Shown here: positions 897 to 11,484 of the stretch, piece after piece
Layout: each line of letters begins with the position of its first letter
How positions within the stretch are numbered: the stretch's first letter is position 1
From: Candidatus Zixiibacteriota bacterium
Lineage (GTDB): Bacteria > Zixibacteria > MSB-5A5 > GN15 > FEB-12
Assembly (NCBI GenBank): GCA_024276275.1
Contig: JAJRXM010000006.1
Span: 1-64,000 of the forward strand
Length of the DNA: 64,000 nt
Direction: 5' to 3'
Program-made: the position numbers and the translations under genes
The notes under the pieces: model-generated
What the model saw: only the letters and a program-made list of their open reading frames with translations
Told to the model about the DNA's origin: nothing
Database searches by the model: none

Positions 897-939
897 AGAT
901 TAAAAATAGAACAGGCGAGCCTGTTCCCTACAATTTTAC

Positions 940-998: not shown

Positions 999-2381
999 TC
1001 ACTTATGAATGCGTTTGAGGTAGGCTTCCATTTCGGGGATACCGCCTTGGAAAATTAGATACCCGTTGTATGGTTCACGTTCGGTAATTTCATCGGAAAT
1101 AGGAGTCAGCATAATCTCTTTGACTTTTTCCAAATCATCGCTCTGCCCCAATGCCCATCCGAGTTTGATATAGGCAACCTCGGGAAGCATATTATCGGCC
1201 GGAATAATTCCCATCGCCATGAGGTCACGACCGGTATCATACACAAACATGTGGACATATCCCCACAATGTTTGGACAGTCATATAAATAGCGATACCTT
1301 TGGCAGTCGCCCGCTCAATAGCCGGATAGATTTCTTTGTTGACATGCCCCAGCCCTGTCCCTGCGATGACTATTCCCTTATAACCGTTCTCAATCAGGGA
1401 ATCAATAATATCCGGCTTCATGTTTGGATAATAATAAACAATTGCAACTTTTTCCTCAAAGTATGGGAGAATTTTCACATCTCTATCTTTGCGGCGAGGC
1501 TTAAAGTTATCCTTTATGTGAATGATACTATCCTTATCTATAGTAGCAATTGGCGTATCACCGATAGTTCTGAACGTAGAACGATATGATGAGTGCATTT
1601 TACGTACACGGCACCCTGAATGAAGCAGTCCGTATTCATCGGATGTCGGTCCGAACATACAGACCATAACCTCGGCTATATCTGACTCAGCTGCTGCTTT
1701 GGTGGCGTGAATTAGATTTAGGGTAGCATCGGATGACGGCCTGTCAGACGACCTTTGTGAACCGACTATTACAATCGGTACAGGTGAGTCCTGTATCATA
1801 AATGACAGAGCTGCTGCTGTATGATGCATAGTATCAGTACCATGCCCGACAACGATACCGTCGATACCTTTTTCAATCTCTTTGCCGATTGATTTAGCAA
1901 GAGTGATATATTCCTGCGGTCCCATATTTTCAGAGAATACAGCAAACAGTTTTTCAGTTGTCATATTACAAATATCAGCAAGCTCGGGAACTGCTCCGTA
2001 GAGTTCGCCCGGTGAAAATGCGGGAATAACTGCTCCGGTACGATAGTCAAGACGGGAAGCGATTGTTCCGCCGGTTCCGAACAGTTTAACATTGGGCTTA
2101 TCTTTAGAGTATGGAAATTCTTTTTCGGGAATTTTATAGTTAGCCTCTTTATATCCCTCTTCTTTCATATCGGTGATAGTATCAACCAAAATCCCAACAT
2201 TATAGCCGGTAATCATTTTAAGCACAATATGTAAGTCATCATCATTTTCAGAGCGTGGCAAGACAATACCTTTAAATTCACCGCGAGTAGTTTGTACGAC
2301 AGCATCGCTCCATACTCGTATTTTGTAAGACTTCAATACATCGAGAGCTTTTCCTTTGTATCCTTTAAACAAATCAGCCAT
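999..2381 (-). CDS. gatD: Glu-tRNA(Gln) amidotransferase subunit D (archaeal type)
   Basis: GatD is the asparaginase-like subunit that frees ammonia from amide donors. GatE uses that ammonia to turn Glu-tRNA(Gln) into Gln-tRNA(Gln). The 460-residue protein has the expected N-terminal domain (about 1-95) followed by an L-asparaginase fold. Active-site motifs are intact: GTGGTIAS with Thr106, GHGTDT with Thr182-Asp183, and a probable catalytic Lys in RVRKMH (about 261). The length and N-terminal domain fit GatD rather than a plain asparaginase. The start is an ATG behind AAAGGAG, which lies inside the end of gatE; one base separates the two genes, so translation is probably coupled. GatDE is regarded as the archaeal version of this enzyme, so its presence in a bacterium is notable. 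Confidence 0.93.
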   Translation of the reverse strand: MADLFKGYKGKALDVLKSYKIRVWSDAVVQTTRGEFKGIVLPRSENDDDLHIVLKMITGYNVGILVDTITDMKEEGYKEANYKIPEKEFPYSKDKPNVKLFGTGGTIASRLDYRTGAVIPAFSPGELYGAVPELADICNMTTEKLFAVFSENMGPQEYITLAKSIGKEIEKGIDGIVVGHGTDTMHHTAAALSFMIQDSPVPIVIVGSQRSSDRPSSDATLNLIHATKAAAESDIAEVMVCMFGPTSDEYGLLHSGCRVRKMHSSYRSTFRTIGDTPIATIDKDSIIHIKDNFKPRRKDRDVKILPYFEEKVAIVYYYPNMKPDIIDSLIENGYKGIVIAGTGLGHVNKEIYPAIERATAKGIAIYMTVQTLWGYVHMFVYDTGRDLMAMGIIPADNMLPEVAYIKLGWALGQSDDLEKVKEIMLTPISDEITEREPYNGYLIFQGGIPEMEAYLKRIHK

Positions 2382-2382
2382 T

Positions 2383-4353
2383 TTAGATGCTCTCCTTTAC
2401 TAAAACCGACAATTCAGAAAGAGGTATATTTCCCATTGCTTTGTTTCGTATCTGGCCCATAATCCAATCAAATTTGGCATTAGGATTTTTTGAACTGTTA
2501 ATCTGGTCAAACTTCTCAGACAACAACGGAATATAGGATTTCAATTTCTCTTTATCACGTCGTTTAAAGTTTAACTGTTCTAAGATAGATTCAAACCGCA
2601 TGTTAGGATGTTGATATAATTCCACGAGCATTAAACGGGAAATTTCTTGGTGTAAATTTTCTTCTTTTATAAAACGAAACATACCTAAAACTTTTGAATA
2701 TGTAAAATCGCCCGACGGTGTATGCTGTCCCTCCAGATGTTTTAAATCAAAGGCAAATAGTTTAGCAATAAATGACTGTGAAACATCTGTCTCATAGTTG
2801 ATACGGCGAATCATCATCATAAGATTATTTCTAAAAATATATGTCCATGTAGATTCAGGTACTTTCCATTCCGAAAGCGTCTTCATTTCATCGGAGATAT
2901 CGTGCGGTAAAGTTTGTCTGATCTCTTCTATCCATTTCTCAGGAATTTGAATCGGTGCTGAATCGGTATCGGGATACATACGGTCGGCACCAGGAAGAAC
3001 TCTTTCAAAAATCGTTGTACCGTCGGGCAGTCCTTTACGCGTTTCATTCGGAACACCCTCAAACGCCATCTGACAACGCTCTTCAATAGTTTCGACAGCA
3101 ATCTGTCTATCGTATTCATCAGTCCAGAAAACTATTTGGGCATCTTCTTCAGAGGCTCCAAGAGTTTCTCTGATATAGTCACCATCGGCAAAAAAGAATT
3201 CAGGTCTTGGTGTTTCCGATGAAATCATATTTGGATGCTCGAGGCATGCGATAACTTTCAGGCGGTCGGCGATTTCATTTGAGAACATCTGTCCCGGTTG
3301 TGTGAAATGGGAAAGAATTCCTTTGAAGTGAGGAAGATTAACCGCTATCAGTTTTTTATTTTCTTCTTGAGCTTTTAAGATAAAGTGTGTAGATGAATTC
3401 AGTTTATTGTAATCAAGTTCAACAACTTGCATTTTCCATTCAGTCGGTTTAATACGTTTGAGAAGTTGTTCCCTGATTTTCAAAAGAGCAACCTGACGAT
3501 ACGCTTCATTGTGTGTCAGGAGCGGTATCCATTTTATGTGAGCGACACCCTTGATTTCAACACGCGTTCCTCCCTCAGCCGAGACATTTACATCTTGCCT
3601 GGCAGCTCCGATGCCTGTAAAAACATTGCCTGTTGAACGGACAAGAAATCGGAGATACTGACATGCTTCTTCTGCTTCTGAAGGTGTCAGCATTTCGGGA
3701 TAAGTCACAGTTTCAATTAAAGGCATACCGAGACGGTCGGTGCGATAGACCCGCTCATGTCCGATGTCTGAAATCTCACGTGCGGAGTCTTCTTCGATTG
3801 AAAGCTGTATCAAGCGGATTGTTTTATTTTTGAGAGGTATCTCTCCCTCAATTCCAATTATACCTGTTCGTTGAAAACCGGCAGGAATTGAACCGTCGAG
3901 ATATTGTTTTCGAATAATATGTAATTCACCTACAACTGATTGTTTTGCCAAGAGTGATATTTGGATAGCAATTTTTAAAGCTTCGGTATTGATTTTAAAC
4001 GGCGGTGTGTCATCTATTTCGTAAGTACAAGTCGTTTCATTTTTCAGACGATAGGTAATATTTTTACGGGTACGAAACTCCATAAGAGCGGTACCGTCGT
4101 ATTCACCTAGTTCACTAAGAGTAGGACGCATGTGACGGATAACCTCGGCATCGTATTCATCAATTTTATTATAAACTGAGGCAGGGCAACGGCAGAATAG
4201 TTTTTTTTCTGTTTTGAGTTGCTGATGAACTTCGAGTCCGCATTTGAATCCGATTTTTGCGTAATCTTCTTCTTTTGCTATTTTAAAATCGACATAACCT
4301 GAGGCTATTTTTGTTTTCTGAAAATTATCTACTACATCAAATATATCGCTCAT
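2383..4353 (-). CDS. gatE: Glu-tRNA(Gln) amidotransferase subunit E (archaeal type)
   Basis: GatE binds Glu-tRNA(Gln), activates the glutamyl group with ATP and transfers ammonia supplied by GatD. The 656 residues are near the usual GatE length. The GatB/GatE cradle motif GLEVHQQL is at about 39-46, followed by FCRCP, then the PLIE and ATYPEM-like stretch (MPLIETVTYPEM), an AspRS-like inserted domain in the second half and a C-terminal helical tail of GatB/YqeY type. GatB proteins are about 480 residues and lack the insert, so this is GatE. It is first in a two-gene operon with gatD and diverges from the exported-protein gene at 4583; promoters for both must lie in the 229-base gap. Confidence 0.93.
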   Translation of the reverse strand: MSDIFDVVDNFQKTKIASGYVDFKIAKEEDYAKIGFKCGLEVHQQLKTEKKLFCRCPASVYNKIDEYDAEVIRHMRPTLSELGEYDGTALMEFRTRKNITYRLKNETTCTYEIDDTPPFKINTEALKIAIQISLLAKQSVVGELHIIRKQYLDGSIPAGFQRTGIIGIEGEIPLKNKTIRLIQLSIEEDSAREISDIGHERVYRTDRLGMPLIETVTYPEMLTPSEAEEACQYLRFLVRSTGNVFTGIGAARQDVNVSAEGGTRVEIKGVAHIKWIPLLTHNEAYRQVALLKIREQLLKRIKPTEWKMQVVELDYNKLNSSTHFILKAQEENKKLIAVNLPHFKGILSHFTQPGQMFSNEIADRLKVIACLEHPNMISSETPRPEFFFADGDYIRETLGASEEDAQIVFWTDEYDRQIAVETIEERCQMAFEGVPNETRKGLPDGTTIFERVLPGADRMYPDTDSAPIQIPEKWIEEIRQTLPHDISDEMKTLSEWKVPESTWTYIFRNNLMMMIRRINYETDVSQSFIAKLFAFDLKHLEGQHTPSGDFTYSKVLGMFRFIKEENLHQEISRLMLVELYQHPNMRFESILEQLNFKRRDKEKLKSYIPLLSEKFDQINSSKNPNAKFDWIMGQIRNKAMGNIPLSELSVLVKESI

Positions 4354-4582: not shown

Positions 4583-5677
4583 ATGAGATATAAACAAATA
4601 CTGATAATTTTAATTCTCTTCTCAGTTTTGGGTAAACATACTGTTTCTCAAGCTGCGGAAAAACAGATAAGCTATCAAGGACAGCTGTTAGGTTCAAATG
4701 GAACTGCTGTTGTAGACGGGACATACTCTGTTGATTTTCTGCTCTATACTGATTCGGTAGACGGGTCAATTGTTTGGGCTGAAAATGCTGACATACAGAC
4801 TTTGGGAGGATTATTCTCATATCAAATCGGTTCCTTTAACAGCTTAACCAGTTCATTGTTTCAGCAGTATCCGATTCTGTATTTGGAACTCAGAATTAGC
4901 GGAACACCTATTCTCCCGCGTAGTCGATTGGGAGCATCAGCTTATGCATTTTCAGCGTCTGATATTAGCGGATATGACAGTAATGCAATCAAGTCTATAG
5001 AGACAGATTCTGAAAATCGCAGTTTGACTTTGTATGATTCACTAGGAAATAGCTACATTACTTTTCAGCAAAAGGCCGGAGACTCTGCTTTGATTATTCC
5101 TGATGCATCGATAAATGCTGATGAGTTACTAAATGAACCCGGCTTGACATCATCTATTGATATATCTCTCACAACTCTTACTAATAGTGAAATGATAGAT
5201 TTAACCAAGGTTACTATTGATATTCCCGATGACGGTTATATAGTCCTTTACGGGAAATGCTATCTATTGCTTTCGGGAACAACCGGAGCAAATTCGGCAA
5301 TTGTGCAGATTGATGCTACCGAAGGCGGCGGCACGCAGTTTCCTTACTATACTATTGCCGGGCTTTCCGGTTATACAAACTCCGGGACAAATTATTTTCC
5401 GGTATGTATCACCAGAACTTATTATAAATCTAAAGGTACTTATACATTTCGTCTAGAGGCAAAAGCTAACTACCCTCTCCCCGCTGTAGCACAAAGTTGG
5501 GATCATATATTATCAGCCTTCTATTATCCTACATCTTACCGAGGTGTTGAAGCAATAGTTTCAAGTCCCTTAAATTTCCGGCAAGCAGTTCCGATTTCTG
5601 CTGACAGTTTGAGAAGCACAAAAGGTTTTTATAAAGTTGATTTGCGAGAACTTGAAATCTTAGATAAAAAAGAATAG
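4583..5677 (+). CDS. Exported protein with N-terminal YQGxL domain, function unknown
   Basis: A signal peptide (about residues 1-24, ending near SQAA) is followed by ISYQGQLL...GTYSVDFLLY...GLFSYQIG...YLELRI...PRSRLGASAYAF. This domain is common at the N terminus of surface or exported proteins in FCB-type and related bacteria and resembles collar or tail-fibre modules. The remaining 200 or so residues are beta-rich, end with a short charged tail and match nothing I recognise. The gene ends exactly one base before the stop codon of the convergent gene at 5678, with no room for a terminator. No strong ribosome-binding site precedes the ATG. Confidence 0.7.
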   Translation: MRYKQILIILILFSVLGKHTVSQAAEKQISYQGQLLGSNGTAVVDGTYSVDFLLYTDSVDGSIVWAENADIQTLGGLFSYQIGSFNSLTSSLFQQYPILYLELRISGTPILPRSRLGASAYAFSASDISGYDSNAIKSIETDSENRSLTLYDSLGNSYITFQQKAGDSALIIPDASINADELLNEPGLTSSIDISLTTLTNSEMIDLTKVTIDIPDDGYIVLYGKCYLLLSGTTGANSAIVQIDATEGGGTQFPYYTIAGLSGYTNSGTNYFPVCITRTYYKSKGTYTFRLEAKANYPLPAVAQSWDHILSAFYYPTSYRGVEAIVSSPLNFRQAVPISADSLRSTKGFYKVDLRELEILDKKE

Positions 5678-7810
5678 TTATTTAATTAGTATCATTTTCT
5701 TTTTAGAAACCGCCTGCTCTGTTTCTAATTTATATAAATAAATTCCGGTAGCTATAACATTTCCACTAGAACTTGTACCATCCCAACTCACAGAATAATT
5801 CCCGGCATCTTGTTCGGTGTTTATCAAAGTTTTGACTTTCTGCCCTAAGATATTATAAATAGAAAGCTGTACTTTTGATTTTTCAGACATGCTGTAATTT
5901 ATTACCGTTTCCAAATTGAACGGGTTCGGGTAGTTCTGCCCTAAAGAAACAAAATTGTTTTCTTCGGTATACTGATTTTGTCCTGTCAGCGGAAGGTCGT
6001 GATAATACAGCATAACAGATTGATTGTCATGAACTACTATCAAATTATAGTCAACAACAATAGAGTTACCCGGTAAACCGCCTGCATCTATTACTATCGG
6101 TACACTACCTTTTAAATCAAATTTTGTAATTCCGCCACTACCGACAGTAAACAGATAATCTTCGGCGATAACAGCATCAACAACTTCATTTGGGATAGAA
6201 ATAACCGCTTGAATAGATATATTATTTCTATCACTAAAATCTAGGATATACATTTCATTTTCAACGAACAAATAGAGTAGGTCATTGTAAAAAATAGACT
6301 CAGTAGCGGTACCGCTTAAACTGAACGATGCGATAAATTTTCTAAATTCTGAAAACGGTTGATAGACAGTACATTCGTTTTTCCTATCAGTAACAACAAC
6401 AAATGAATCTATCGAGGCAAATGAAGTCATATCGGAAACAAATCTCCATTCTCCGACATACGACAAAAAGCCTGAATCCGAGGCTGCATATAGTTGGTAT
6501 TTAAACGGGTAATCTAAAAAAATAAGATTATTATTATCGAGCTGCTTAGGGACATAAGACATTTCTCTTGCAGGTGAGGATGATATAGTAATAGAGTTTT
6601 CCAGTAAAACAGAGTCCGGCTCATCGGCATTTACAATAACAGCCAGTTTATCTATATCCGGATAAATGACAAACACTGAGTCTCCGTTATTGATTAAATG
6701 TCCTGTATTTTTCAAATTTTCATAAACTGAAAAAGCGTAGGTAGTAAAACCGGTACTGTCTATAGCATAAAGTTGAATCGGTTCGGCACTGCTGCTTATA
6801 TATAATAATGAATTATAAATATAGATATCATTGATTTTGCCGTTATATGTTAATCCATTTCGAATACTCAACATTGTATCAATGTCTAGAATCGTAAGAC
6901 CTCCGCCGATAGTGGGAAGTAACAACGACAAATTACTATCGGTTCGGTTTAACAAGCCGAGCGGGTTTACATTGCTTATCGTATAAACTACCTTATCATC
7001 AAAATTCGATTTGTTTATAAGAGTAAGAAAGCGATCTTCTGTGATAATAAAAAGAGAATCATTATTATATAAATTTGCAACCTGGCTTAAGTCTAAAATA
7101 GAATCTATAATATTATTTCCCGAAGGCTGATTAAAATCCCCTACTAAAAGTCCACCTCGAATTAAATGCAGATAAAACAGTGAGTCTATTTTTGTGAAAG
7201 CGTTTGCTCTGAAAGGTACAAAAAGATAGTCATCAAATATACCGAATCCATTGCCTGTTATATCATACCTTAAGAGACCGTTGTACTCATCCAGAGCATA
7301 CAAATATTCTGAATCATGACTCAGTTGAGTTACTAAAATTCCGGTCATGCTTGAATCTACAAACTTAACCGTAGAATAATCCTGTAAAGAGTATCGTAAA
7401 ATCCCATCATAAAACCCGGCGATATACAGTGAATTCCCGATAAGTGTATAATCGGCAAACGGTCTGTTCAAATCGACAACACCAAGGTATTGCAATTCCG
7501 GAAGATTTTTGAGAAAAACAAAATGAAGTTTTTCATCGTGAGAATTGATTATAAGGATTGAATCTACTAATTTTGTTGTTACTGAATCAAGAGCCGATAT
7601 ATAATTTCTTGTGAGGAATCGGTATTGCTGCAATGAATCATCATAAACAAACAATGAGACTCCCCCTCTTGAAGCTGAGACTAAGAAACTATCAACTGAA
7701 TGCAGTGTACCGATAGCAGTTGATGTTAATGTTTGGTCCGGCAATTGTTTTATCTCTGCCTGAACTGCTGTAGTCAGCAAAATGAAAAAGAAGAAAGTAA
7801 TTTTTTTCAT
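5678..7810 (-). CDS. Secreted beta-propeller-like protein with type IX secretion (T9SS) C-terminal tail
   Basis: A short signal peptide (about 1-18, ending VQA) is followed by about 600 residues of repeated short strands with patterns such as LLYISSSAEPIQLYAID. These are typical of propeller or LVIVD-repeat proteins, with no catalytic motif. The last 85 residues form a T9SS type A sorting domain: LGQNYPNPFN, SIYNILGQKVKTL, SSGNVIATGIYLYKLET, KKMILIK. The protein is expected to be exported and released or anchored at the cell surface by a PorU-type system. The ATG overlaps the stop codon of the upstream subtilase gene as ATGA, so the two are co-transcribed and translationally coupled. The propeller may be a substrate, partner or regulator of the protease (inference). 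Confidence 0.78.
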   Translation of the reverse strand: MKKITFFFFILLTTAVQAEIKQLPDQTLTSTAIGTLHSVDSFLVSASRGGVSLFVYDDSLQQYRFLTRNYISALDSVTTKLVDSILIINSHDEKLHFVFLKNLPELQYLGVVDLNRPFADYTLIGNSLYIAGFYDGILRYSLQDYSTVKFVDSSMTGILVTQLSHDSEYLYALDEYNGLLRYDITGNGFGIFDDYLFVPFRANAFTKIDSLFYLHLIRGGLLVGDFNQPSGNNIIDSILDLSQVANLYNNDSLFIITEDRFLTLINKSNFDDKVVYTISNVNPLGLLNRTDSNLSLLLPTIGGGLTILDIDTMLSIRNGLTYNGKINDIYIYNSLLYISSSAEPIQLYAIDSTGFTTYAFSVYENLKNTGHLINNGDSVFVIYPDIDKLAVIVNADEPDSVLLENSITISSSPAREMSYVPKQLDNNNLIFLDYPFKYQLYAASDSGFLSYVGEWRFVSDMTSFASIDSFVVVTDRKNECTVYQPFSEFRKFIASFSLSGTATESIFYNDLLYLFVENEMYILDFSDRNNISIQAVISIPNEVVDAVIAEDYLFTVGSGGITKFDLKGSVPIVIDAGGLPGNSIVVDYNLIVVHDNQSVMLYYHDLPLTGQNQYTEENNFVSLGQNYPNPFNLETVINYSMSEKSKVQLSIYNILGQKVKTLINTEQDAGNYSVSWDGTSSSGNVIATGIYLYKLETEQAVSKKKMILIK

Positions 7811-10800
7811 TTTATCAGCACCATTTTTTTGGTTAAAGAGATATCGGTTGATTCAAGACGGTACAAATAAATTCCCGAGGCAAACTTGTCTCCATCAAAC
7901 TGAACTGTATGCAGTCCTGCCTCAAAAAGACCTTCGGCTAAACTTTGTACTTCCTGCCCAAGGATATTATAAACGGTCAATTTAATTTCATCTTTATTTG
8001 GCAGTTCAAAGGCGATTGTCGTAATCGGATTAAAAGGGTTCGGATAATTTTGGTTAAGACCAAACAATTTAGGAAGGTTGTTTATGTCATCACCTATATC
8101 AGTCGGTATACCTTTTGAATTATATTGATTAGAATTAAGATTATCCATTAAATACCGAGTTTTATTTTTCCCCTCTTTAAAAGATGCATCAAAATCCCAA
8201 ACTAAAACATCTGAATTGTCACTCATCAAAATCAGTTCAACAAGACCATCAGAATCGAGATCATCTACTAACGGAACAAATTGAGTTGAAAATACCTGAT
8301 TATATCTTGCAGGAGTTTCAGAGGGCCAGTTCGGTATCGGAGTAAGGTCATTACTTAAGATATGGACAATTTCCGGACCGGTACCGGGAAGTATGAAACC
8401 GGAACGAAAGATAATCTCCGGGAATTCATCTCCATAGAGATTTGCTGCTATAGGAATTCCTAATGTTCCAAAGACTGTATAAGCCGCACCAAATGGAGCG
8501 TTGATTTGCTGTTTATATGGAGTACCGTCTGAATTAAATATAAAGAGATGACCGATATCAAACCAGAAAGCAGTAAACATTATTTCGGGGTTACCGTCTA
8601 AATCCAAATCAGCTAAAGTCATTGCTGAAATTAGCCATCCCTCTATATCGTTAATCTGTATCGGCCACCCGGGATAGTCCTCGGTCATTTGAGTTTTGAC
8701 CCATAACGTCAGGTCTCCGGTTGTGTCTTTTCCGAGTGATATTATTTCGGAGCTGTTATTATTATCAAAATCGGCGATAGCGGTACTAAACACTTCCTGC
8801 TGTAAAATTATAACCGGATCAGTTTCAGAAAGAAGCGGCAGACCTGTTCTTCCGTTAAAAAGCCCAACGCCTGCATATGGTGGAGGTGCTGAATAAGAAG
8901 AAAGAACTTCGTAAAAGCCGTCATGGTTGAAATCTAAAGATGTAACAAACGGAGAGACCTTTCCCCCGTTGGAAACAAAATCGGATATCCGAGGATTAAG
9001 AACAGCGTAAAATCCTTCCAGAGAGTAAAAGTATGAATCACCGTTGAATTCATACGCTAAAATCTGACCGAGAGTATTGATAATAACAATAGCTGAATCT
9101 TCGGTTGCCCCCAGTTTGGTAATTGTTGGATTTGGGTAACCATGCCCTAATCGTATCATACCTGTTTCACAATACTGCGGCCAACCGTCAGCAATGGTTC
9201 CGTCGAATTTGACAACATAAATTCCTGTATCTGAAGTAATAATAATTTCATCGTTACCGTCGCGTGTAATATCATACACCGCAGGCATAGACCGAACATC
9301 TATACCCGGTAGAGCCGGGAATCCGTCAAGTATTTCGCCGTTTGCATTAAACCCGAAAAGACCGGCACCGGTAGGAATATAAATTTCTTTTAAATTATCA
9401 TGATTTAAGTCTGCTACAATTGGGCTTAAAGAACTTTTTGTACCTAAAGATTGTGGCCATCCATTTGCAAAAACAGAATTGATACGAAACGATACTGTAT
9501 CAACCAAAGTTTCTGCTTGATAATATCCGTGCAGAAACATTTTATAGTCTCCGGTATCAACACCGGAAATTTTCCAATTATAAATAAAAGAATCGTAAAA
9601 CTCTTTTGTATCGGTAAATATAGTCCCCTGACTTCCATTTTGTTTAAATGAAATTTTCAGGGAGTCAAAGTCCGGACCATAGGCAGCACCCGAGATAAGA
9701 ATATCAAAATTTACTATATCATTATTAGTAGGTGTAAAAAATTGTAGTTTTCTAACACGGGAGTAATAAAAATCTGTTTTTGTTTTGTTACCGAGAGCAT
9801 CAACAAGTTGTAAGAATATATGTCCGCTTGGGAATGTAGAATCAATTGTATAGAGTAAAGAATCAGACGGCAGCAATGTACCGCTCGCCAAAGGAAGCCA
9901 TGCACTGTCTTGTCCTACAGCATAAGATAAAACCCATAAATCGTTATATCCCCCTGACGGGATAATTTTAATAGGGATGTCACCTGTATATCTATCTTTC
10001 TGTTTTGGTGTTTCAAATGAAAGACCTTCAGGTGCTAATAATGAAAGAGAATTGTCAATATTTAACAATCCATGTCCTGAAAGAGTATCATAGCCAATCA
10101 GGTTATCCCCTTGACGAAGCGGATCAACCATATCTACAGCACCGCTTAGAAGTATCTCTTCAAGTTGATCAACCGATAGTTCCGGTTTCAGAGACCAAAT
10201 AAGAGCAGCTGCACCAGCCACGATAGGTGTTGCCATTGAGGTACCGTCAGCGAGGTAATAAAGGGAATCGTTCCCTATTATTCTTACGTTTGGTTCCGTC
10301 GGGGCATAGAGGTCTGTCTCGGCACCTCTGATAGATAGAATATCTTCACCGGGGGCAACAATATCAATATGTTCTCCGTAAGTTGTAAAGTATGTTAGAT
10401 AACCATCTGAATTACTTGCCGCAACGACAAAAGTAGAATCAAATGCAGCAGGGAAAAATCGTTCTGTTCCACCGGTATTCCCGGGAGCAATACAGACAAA
10501 AACATCATTAGCTCTGGCGTATGAGAGTGCATCTTTTAAAACAGCAGATTCAAACGGTGTTCCCCAACTGAGATAAATAATATCGGCACCGTTGTTGACC
10601 GCATAGATAATCCCTTCGGCAGCTACAGCAATTGTAAAGTTCGGAAATATCTTCAAAGGCATTATAAGAGAATTGGGGGCAACCCCGACAACACCGATAG
10701 AATCATTTTTAGCAGCAACAATACCGGCAAGATGAGAACCGTGCCCTACCATATCAGTCGGGTCGTTGTCACCTACCTGATTAAAAAATGTCAGATTGTC

Positions 10801-11484
10801 TCCTGAAATATCAAAACCAAGTGTATCATCTACATATCCGTTATGGTCATCATCAATACCGTTTAAAGGAATTTCATCTTGATTTATCCAAAACTGTCCC
10901 TGTAATTCAGGATGAGTAAGATCAACACCTGAATCAATAATTGCTACAACGATTTTTGTTTTATCGGCAGGTTTGTTTGTATAGTAATCTTGCAAGCCAA
11001 CATCAAAACCGGCAAAGCCTGATTTCATTACGAGTTTGTCATTAAAAGAACCTGGGTTTCTATGGATACCATAATACATCTGACCTGTGTTTTGTAAATA
11101 CCACTGATGCTTGAATAGAGAATCTTGGGGAAATTCGAACATTTCTAAATAATAATTAGGTTCTATATATGCTATATTCTGGTCACCTAAAATTGTAGCA
11201 ACATCGGAAATTGTCAGAGTTGTATCAGATGACGCAAAAAGAAAATATCTTTGAATTAGGTTTTCTTGAGATGAAAAATTTTGACTATTGCCCGAAAGAT
11301 GTTTGAGTTGAGTATTTGTTGTAGAGGCAGATAGACTGTATGCAATTTTATCAATCTGTGCTGATTTTTTGAATTTTATAATATACTGGCCAGGTACTTT
11401 TCCTTTTGCAGTTAAATCAGAATTTATTACAAAAGTCAATCCTAAGATAATTAATATATATAATAACCGCTTTTGAACCATCAT
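7807..11484 (-). CDS. Secreted subtilisin-like (S8) serine peptidase with FG-GAP-like region and T9SS tail
   Basis: The 1225-residue protein has a signal peptide (1-27) and an I9-type propeptide-like segment (GQYIIKFKKS). The S8 catalytic domain carries the triad: Asp in AIIDSGVDLTHP (about 183), His in GHGSHLAGIVA (about 250) and Ser in DGTSMATPIVAGAAAL (about 420). A beta-sandwich follows, then a long region of FG-GAP/VCBS-like repeats (PIVADLNHDNLKEIYIP, DFDNNNSSEIISLG, LADLDLDGNPEIMF) that should bind calcium. It ends in a T9SS type A domain (NYPNPFNPITTIAFEL, ASGIYLYRLES). It is the first gene of an operon with the propeller protein at 5678 and probably digests extracellular protein. Confidence 0.9.
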   Translation of the reverse strand: MMVQKRLLYILIILGLTFVINSDLTAKGKVPGQYIIKFKKSAQIDKIAYSLSASTTNTQLKHLSGNSQNFSSQENLIQRYFLFASSDTTLTISDVATILGDQNIAYIEPNYYLEMFEFPQDSLFKHQWYLQNTGQMYYGIHRNPGSFNDKLVMKSGFAGFDVGLQDYYTNKPADKTKIVVAIIDSGVDLTHPELQGQFWINQDEIPLNGIDDDHNGYVDDTLGFDISGDNLTFFNQVGDNDPTDMVGHGSHLAGIVAAKNDSIGVVGVAPNSLIMPLKIFPNFTIAVAAEGIIYAVNNGADIIYLSWGTPFESAVLKDALSYARANDVFVCIAPGNTGGTERFFPAAFDSTFVVAASNSDGYLTYFTTYGEHIDIVAPGEDILSIRGAETDLYAPTEPNVRIIGNDSLYYLADGTSMATPIVAGAAALIWSLKPELSVDQLEEILLSGAVDMVDPLRQGDNLIGYDTLSGHGLLNIDNSLSLLAPEGLSFETPKQKDRYTGDIPIKIIPSGGYNDLWVLSYAVGQDSAWLPLASGTLLPSDSLLYTIDSTFPSGHIFLQLVDALGNKTKTDFYYSRVRKLQFFTPTNNDIVNFDILISGAAYGPDFDSLKISFKQNGSQGTIFTDTKEFYDSFIYNWKISGVDTGDYKMFLHGYYQAETLVDTVSFRINSVFANGWPQSLGTKSSLSPIVADLNHDNLKEIYIPTGAGLFGFNANGEILDGFPALPGIDVRSMPAVYDITRDGNDEIIITSDTGIYVVKFDGTIADGWPQYCETGMIRLGHGYPNPTITKLGATEDSAIVIINTLGQILAYEFNGDSYFYSLEGFYAVLNPRISDFVSNGGKVSPFVTSLDFNHDGFYEVLSSYSAPPPYAGVGLFNGRTGLPLLSETDPVIILQQEVFSTAIADFDNNNSSEIISLGKDTTGDLTLWVKTQMTEDYPGWPIQINDIEGWLISAMTLADLDLDGNPEIMFTAFWFDIGHLFIFNSDGTPYKQQINAPFGAAYTVFGTLGIPIAANLYGDEFPEIIFRSGFILPGTGPEIVHILSNDLTPIPNWPSETPARYNQVFSTQFVPLVDDLDSDGLVELILMSDNSDVLVWDFDASFKEGKNKTRYLMDNLNSNQYNSKGIPTDIGDDINNLPKLFGLNQNYPNPFNPITTIAFELPNKDEIKLTVYNILGQEVQSLAEGLFEAGLHTVQFDGDKFASGIYLYRLESTDISLTKKMVLIK

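Follow-up and report, generated by a model that had tools for sequence, protein, structure and literature searches.

A GatDE pair of archaeal type in GlnRS-bearing Zixiibacteriota, and what it may do there

The window, the whole stretch of 64,000 nucleotides that was analysed, belongs to contig C42 of a 3.39 Mb MAG (95.4% complete, 0.3% contaminated) from Zixiibacteriota, a phylum of the FCB group. On its minus strand lies an operon in which gatE comes first and gatD follows (Table 1). Translational coupling from gatE to gatD is plausible, because the gatE stop falls one base ahead of the gatD ATG and AGGAGA lies in the end of gatE. An Rfam scan of the window gave no matches.

Table 1. Features of the gatDE locus, in positions of the window
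Feature	Position	Strand	Description
gatD	999..2381	-	460 aa; asparaginase-type subunit with GatD N-terminal domain
gatE	2383..4353	-	656 aa; subunit for activation and amidotransfer; domains: GatB/E cradle, insertion, helical, tail
gatE-gatD junction	2379..2395	-	AGGAGA (Shine-Dalgarno-like) within the gatE end, gatE stop, one base, gatD ATG; direct reading
Terminator-like hairpin	908..927	-	about 70 bases past gatD; pattern scan, consensus match only

Both subunits were scored against NCBI curated (NCBIfam equivalog) cut-offs, and both lie above them. GatD reaches 509.8 bits against TIGR02153 gatD_arch (cut-off 324), carries PF18195 (GatD_N) together with both asparaginase domains (PF00710 and PF17763), is 46% identical to GatD of M. 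thermautotrophicus and should release ammonia from Asn or Gln. GatE scores 489 bits against NF003107 (cut-off 456) and 414.7 bits against TIGR00134 (cut-off 319.6). At the same time, it scores only 130.8 bits against the gatB model TIGR00133, so far under the cut-off of 314.8 that GatE is to be kept distinct from GatB. Among solved structures, the best matches to the pair are the GatD and GatE chains of the archaeal entries 2d6f and 1zq1. In the nearest named relative, a Candidatus Zixiibacteriota MAG, GatE is 88% identical to that of the window; its gatE (L121:4644-6610) is interrupted by what looks like a frameshift around residue 530-540.

Other MAGs of the phylum, including the single-contig chromosome CP070777, carry the two genes together with the ORFs that flank them at 4583-11484, and because the same gene set recurs in independent MAGs the contig is not chimeric at gatDE. 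The preliminary description had called both subunits intact and archaeal-type, which the family models and the kept catalytic residues (see below) bear out; of its two reservations, a plain asparaginase with a GatB paralogue is at odds with the GatD_N domain and the GatE score under the GatB cut-off, and a chimeric contig with this synteny, which places GatDE in a real bacterium. It had also called the genes translationally coupled, and here the junction geometry was confirmed, with coupling itself only plausible. Next to gatE there is a divergent ORF of 364 aa, followed in the list of neighbours by two large ORFs whose C-terminal ends are FlgD-like and of sorting type; close relatives alone keep all three next to GatDE.

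GatD Thr106, Thr182, Asp183 and Lys261 are invariant among 26 bacterial GatD sequences compared, and GatE Glu41, His43, Glu187, Glu188, Asp254 and Asn256 among 40 GatE sequences; the Thr, Thr-Asp and Lys motifs of GatD and the GLExH, EE and RxDVN motifs of GatE are kept, with catalytic roles that we take to be those of the solved enzymes. An AlphaFold model of GatE (mean pLDDT 82) has as its top PDB matches 1zq1_C and 2d6f_C/D, before any GatB, over alignments of about 510-520 columns. The cradle, AspRS-like insertion, helical and tail domains are all kept in the model, the helical and tail domains being more variable than the cradle. Because the catalytic residues are invariant and the model matches archaeal GatE first, the chemistry is very likely that of GatDE. 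The loops modelled with low confidence (69-95, 110-116, 152-157 and 453-459) overlap highly invariant stretches and might be expected to belong to the active site or to the GatD interface. A 1,102-residue GatE frame in the genome G131 was considered as a fusion and rejected, since a separate GatD follows it and GatE of the sister genome G130 has 665 aa; the frame is probably over-long.

This conservation bears on whether the pair could be a leftover, with GatD serving chiefly as an asparaginase and GatE in drift since the lineage acquired GlnRS. GatD does have an asparaginase fold, and the cell does have GlnRS, but the first cradle segment of GatE holds 113 residues that are invariant across phyla, which speaks of constraint and not of drift, and the keeping together of gatE and gatD in many lineages likewise points to constraint on GatE. 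We therefore regard a leftover as very unlikely.

A different question is whether the substrate is still the archaeal one. At 35 positions bacterial GatE has a fixed residue unlike that of either archaeal structure, with clusters at 74-119 and 151-157, and the stretch 74-119, which holds many of them, is also the most conserved stretch of the protein; bacterial GatD has a conserved C-terminal tail extending past the archaeal end. The differences in GatE would suit an enzyme that was re-tooled, keeping its chemistry and acting on another aminoacyl-tRNA or carboxylate, hence its coexistence with GlnRS. On the other hand, the enzyme has lost none of its core catalytic residues and neither the helical nor the tail domain, and the equivalog models pass. 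We consider a changed substrate unlikely, though a serious contender, and it is the main rival to the corrective or second route that we favour below.

Searches of the window's own genome, covering named families only, gave no amidase-family (PF01425) match for GatA and no GatB, GatE being the sole PF02934 match. The same genome has a full GlnRS (573 aa, 699 bits), a bacterial GluRS (517 bits) and three class IIb synthetases, which were read from sequence motifs alone as LysRS, AsnRS and AspRS. It also has two bacterial-type tRNA-Gln genes (UUG and CUG), both with U1-A72 and G73. Going by these genes, direct routes to Gln-tRNA are encoded in the genome and, by our reading of the synthetases, one to Asn-tRNA too; that the genome shows no unmet need for Gln-tRNA(Gln) counts in favour of a changed substrate. 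A missing glutamine synthetase was ruled out as the reason for GatDE, the enzyme being found in 129 of the 133 genomes of the phylum, the window's included. The AspRS-like gene (L111:1190-3097, G000:C40) has one in-frame TAA, which is either a sequence error or the mark of a broken gene.

An Arg at the position of T. thermophilus GluRS Arg358 is usually read as discriminating. GluRS of the window's phylum has Arg there in all of about 90 sequences, including those from genomes without GlnRS, and with no variation in the phylum the position was set aside as uninformative about discrimination. In the window's genus the GluRS frame (L003:994-2973, G000:C89; also in G058 and G060) is about 660 aa long, with about 180 aa of membrane-like, proline-rich sequence ahead of a normal GluRS; this may be either a fusion or a frame drawn too long.

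GatE was found above cut-off in 69 of the 133 genomes of the phylum, with fragments in about 12 more; GlnRS is above cut-off in 92 and GatB in 63, and many Zixibacteria carry both GatCAB-type (GatB) and GatDE systems, or just one. Co-occurrence was counted in the 84 genomes that are at least 90% complete, where MAG incompleteness blurs absences and the Fisher p-value ignores ancestry: 54 have GlnRS and GatE, 13 GlnRS without GatE, 3 GatE without GlnRS and 14 neither, so that GlnRS is present in 54 of the 57 GatE genomes. The association follows ancestry in part. When it was tested on a GluRS tree, the independent pairs pointed in the same direction (about 2-3 for, 0-1 against), which is not significant. 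None of the 13 genomes at this completeness with GatB and without GlnRS has GatE, an exclusion that would again be in keeping with a changed substrate. One genome, G121 (94% complete; GatE at C57:24455-26314), is the only one at 90% or above with GatE and with neither GlnRS nor GatB; it is a candidate GatDE-dependent bacterium, or reflects a MAG gap.

GatD was found in 72 of the 86 loci holding GatE. In several deeper GatE lineages (f4, f9, f15 and f16) the stretches covered around gatE showed no GatD next to it (L306, L307, L308, L310, L117, L118 and L120). When gene neighbourhoods were compared, nothing beyond gatD was widely kept next to GatE, and the neighbourhood was accordingly rejected as a guide to function; the lack of conserved biosynthetic neighbours past gatD counts against a re-tooled enzyme. 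In two genomes of genus g84, GatE adjoins GlnRS, with GluRS a few kb off, and in two genomes of family f16 the distance between GluRS and GatE is 1.6-3 kb, one of these genomes having a second GluRS; such proximity is suggestive only as a functional hint. The genome G116 has two bacterial GluRS genes (C1:1515583-1517004 and 2815047-2816462), one of them 1.6 kb from GatE.

Outside the phylum, one genome per species was scanned with the patterns HMRPTLSE and [LM]GEYDGTA, both of which are missing from the two archaeal structures, so that the scan picks a bacterial subset by construction. It yielded at least 577 confirmed relatives. The best 80 of these are mostly labelled Bacteroidales, the others being Zixibacteria, Cloacimonadota, Aminicenantes, Ignavibacteriales, one Acidobacteria and Oceanirhabdus sp. 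W0125-5, where the phylum labels are taken from MAG record titles and may be wrong. A match labelled Calditrichota (L135) was rejected as another phylum, its contig coordinates being identical to those of G017 from the window's phylum, and it is left out of the 39 outside GatE genomes checked, among which GlnRS is above cut-off in 36 and GatB in 3. The clostridial chromosome of Oceanirhabdus sp. W0125-5 (G153) is complete and encodes GatE with GlnRS but without GatB, and MAG gaps are therefore no explanation for this combination there.

In a GatE tree of 120 rows, 117 bacterial rows are set apart by a long stem from 3 archaeal rows (M. thermautotrophicus, P. abyssi and a partial, very long-branched Natrinema row). 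When the tree was rooted with GatB and Natrinema was left out, bacterial GatE formed one group with support of 92/94, which is not decisive. A set of deep GatE lineages is confined, in this tree, to the window's phylum. The window itself, the other phyla and most remaining rows of the phylum fall in a compact group of 97 rows (support 100), whose presence across phyla at 56-60% identity suggests that it moved by transfer between bacteria. Because bacterial GatE stands apart from the three archaeal sequences on a long stem, an old bacterial family is favoured over a recent import. The same stem would also fit a change of substrate between the archaeal and bacterial enzymes.

A recent transfer from archaea, by which GatDE replaced GatCAB (or GlnRS) and became the sole source of Gln-tRNA(Gln), would account for the window genome lacking GatA and GatB and for G121 lacking GlnRS and GatB. 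It sits badly with the full GlnRS of the window genome and of nearly all GatE genomes, and with a window GatE that shares only 32% identity with the two archaeal structures and falls in a bacterial group of its own, and we hold it to be extremely unlikely. Several proposals of the preliminary description can be judged on the same evidence. It had sought support for replacement in the absence of both other routes from the genome: GatA and GatB are indeed absent, but GlnRS is present, and with an AsnRS-like gene also in the genome and GatE accompanying GlnRS inside and outside the phylum, simple replacement fails as a reading. Transfer from archaea finds no support in a tree with three archaeal rows, among which bacterial GatE is not nested. 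Its other option, an old alternative kept by the lineage, fits better with a deep bacterial group apart from the archaeal rows, and its thought that the pair might be lineage-wide agrees with the count of GatE genomes in the phylum.

The explanation that we favour, and consider rather probable, is that bacterial GatDE is a working Glu-tRNA(Gln) amidotransferase that provides a second or corrective route beside GlnRS. A relaxed GluRS would put Glu on tRNA(Gln), GatD would free ammonia from Asn or Gln at its Thr/Thr-Asp/Lys site, and GatE would activate the side-chain carboxyl of the tRNA(Gln)-borne Glu and amidate it to Gln; the pair would thus turn Glu-tRNA(Gln) into Gln-tRNA(Gln) alongside GlnRS and not as its stand-in. 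Glu-tRNA(Gln) as the substrate, its making by the local GluRS, and correction or backup as the reason for retention are parts of this explanation that we infer. The equivalog passes, the invariant residues, the GatE fold, the pairing of gatE with gatD, the gene content of the window's genome and the co-occurrence with GlnRS, also in Oceanirhabdus, argue for it, as does the proximity of GatE to GlnRS or GluRS in g84 and f16. Against it stand a mischarging of tRNA(Gln) by GluRS that it has to presume, the Arg358 marker being silent on it; the U1-A72 pair of tRNA-Gln in place of the A1-U72 that archaeal GatDE reads (PMC9499178); the 35 clade-fixed differences in GatE; and a GlnRS association that is partly ancestry, with 2-3 informative pairs.

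Reviews state that GatDE is restricted to archaea (PMC9499178, PMC8007984), and a genome survey knew of no bacterium in which the two Gln-tRNA(Gln) routes are both encoded (PMC4206432). A literature search, with most subscription journals outside its reach, found no paper on bacterial GatDE, and automatic annotation, whose NCBI models match such genes, may already be naming them. If the proteins act as their family does, both published statements need change, and some bacteria may have two routes to glutamine tRNA. The view of GatDE as an archaeal relic would then be open to question again, and bacteria in which the direct and the indirect Gln route coexist, one of them with a complete chromosome, would offer a natural setting for testing one route against the other. 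More tentatively, at a little under even chances, we propose an old bacterial GatDE, found in at least five phyla and linked to cells that have GlnRS, with a role apart from the supply of Gln-tRNA(Gln): it would either be the first bacterial clean-up of Glu-tRNA(Gln) working next to GlnRS or amidate some other substrate.

Compared with archaeal GatDE (M. thermautotrophicus 2d6f, P. abyssi 1zq1), the window pair has the same subunits, domain order, catalytic residues and GatE fold, at about 32% (GatE) and 46% (GatD) identity. At the same time, the bacterial proteins carry the signature RHMRPTLSELGEYDGTALME and the extra conserved GatD tail, and the window's host has GlnRS and a U1-A72 tRNA-Gln, whereas the archaeal host is without GlnRS. 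With bacterial GatCAB the pair shares the cradle fold and activation chemistry of GatB and GatE, but the window genome has no GatA-type amidase and its GatE lies far under the gatB cut-off. Bdellovibrio, Deinococcus and Thermus retain GatCAB although they have AsnRS and GlnRS (PMC4206432), likewise a case of an amidotransferase next to direct synthetases; the route proposed there is for Asn, whereas the window's enzyme is of the Gln-specific type, in a genome with glutamine synthetase.
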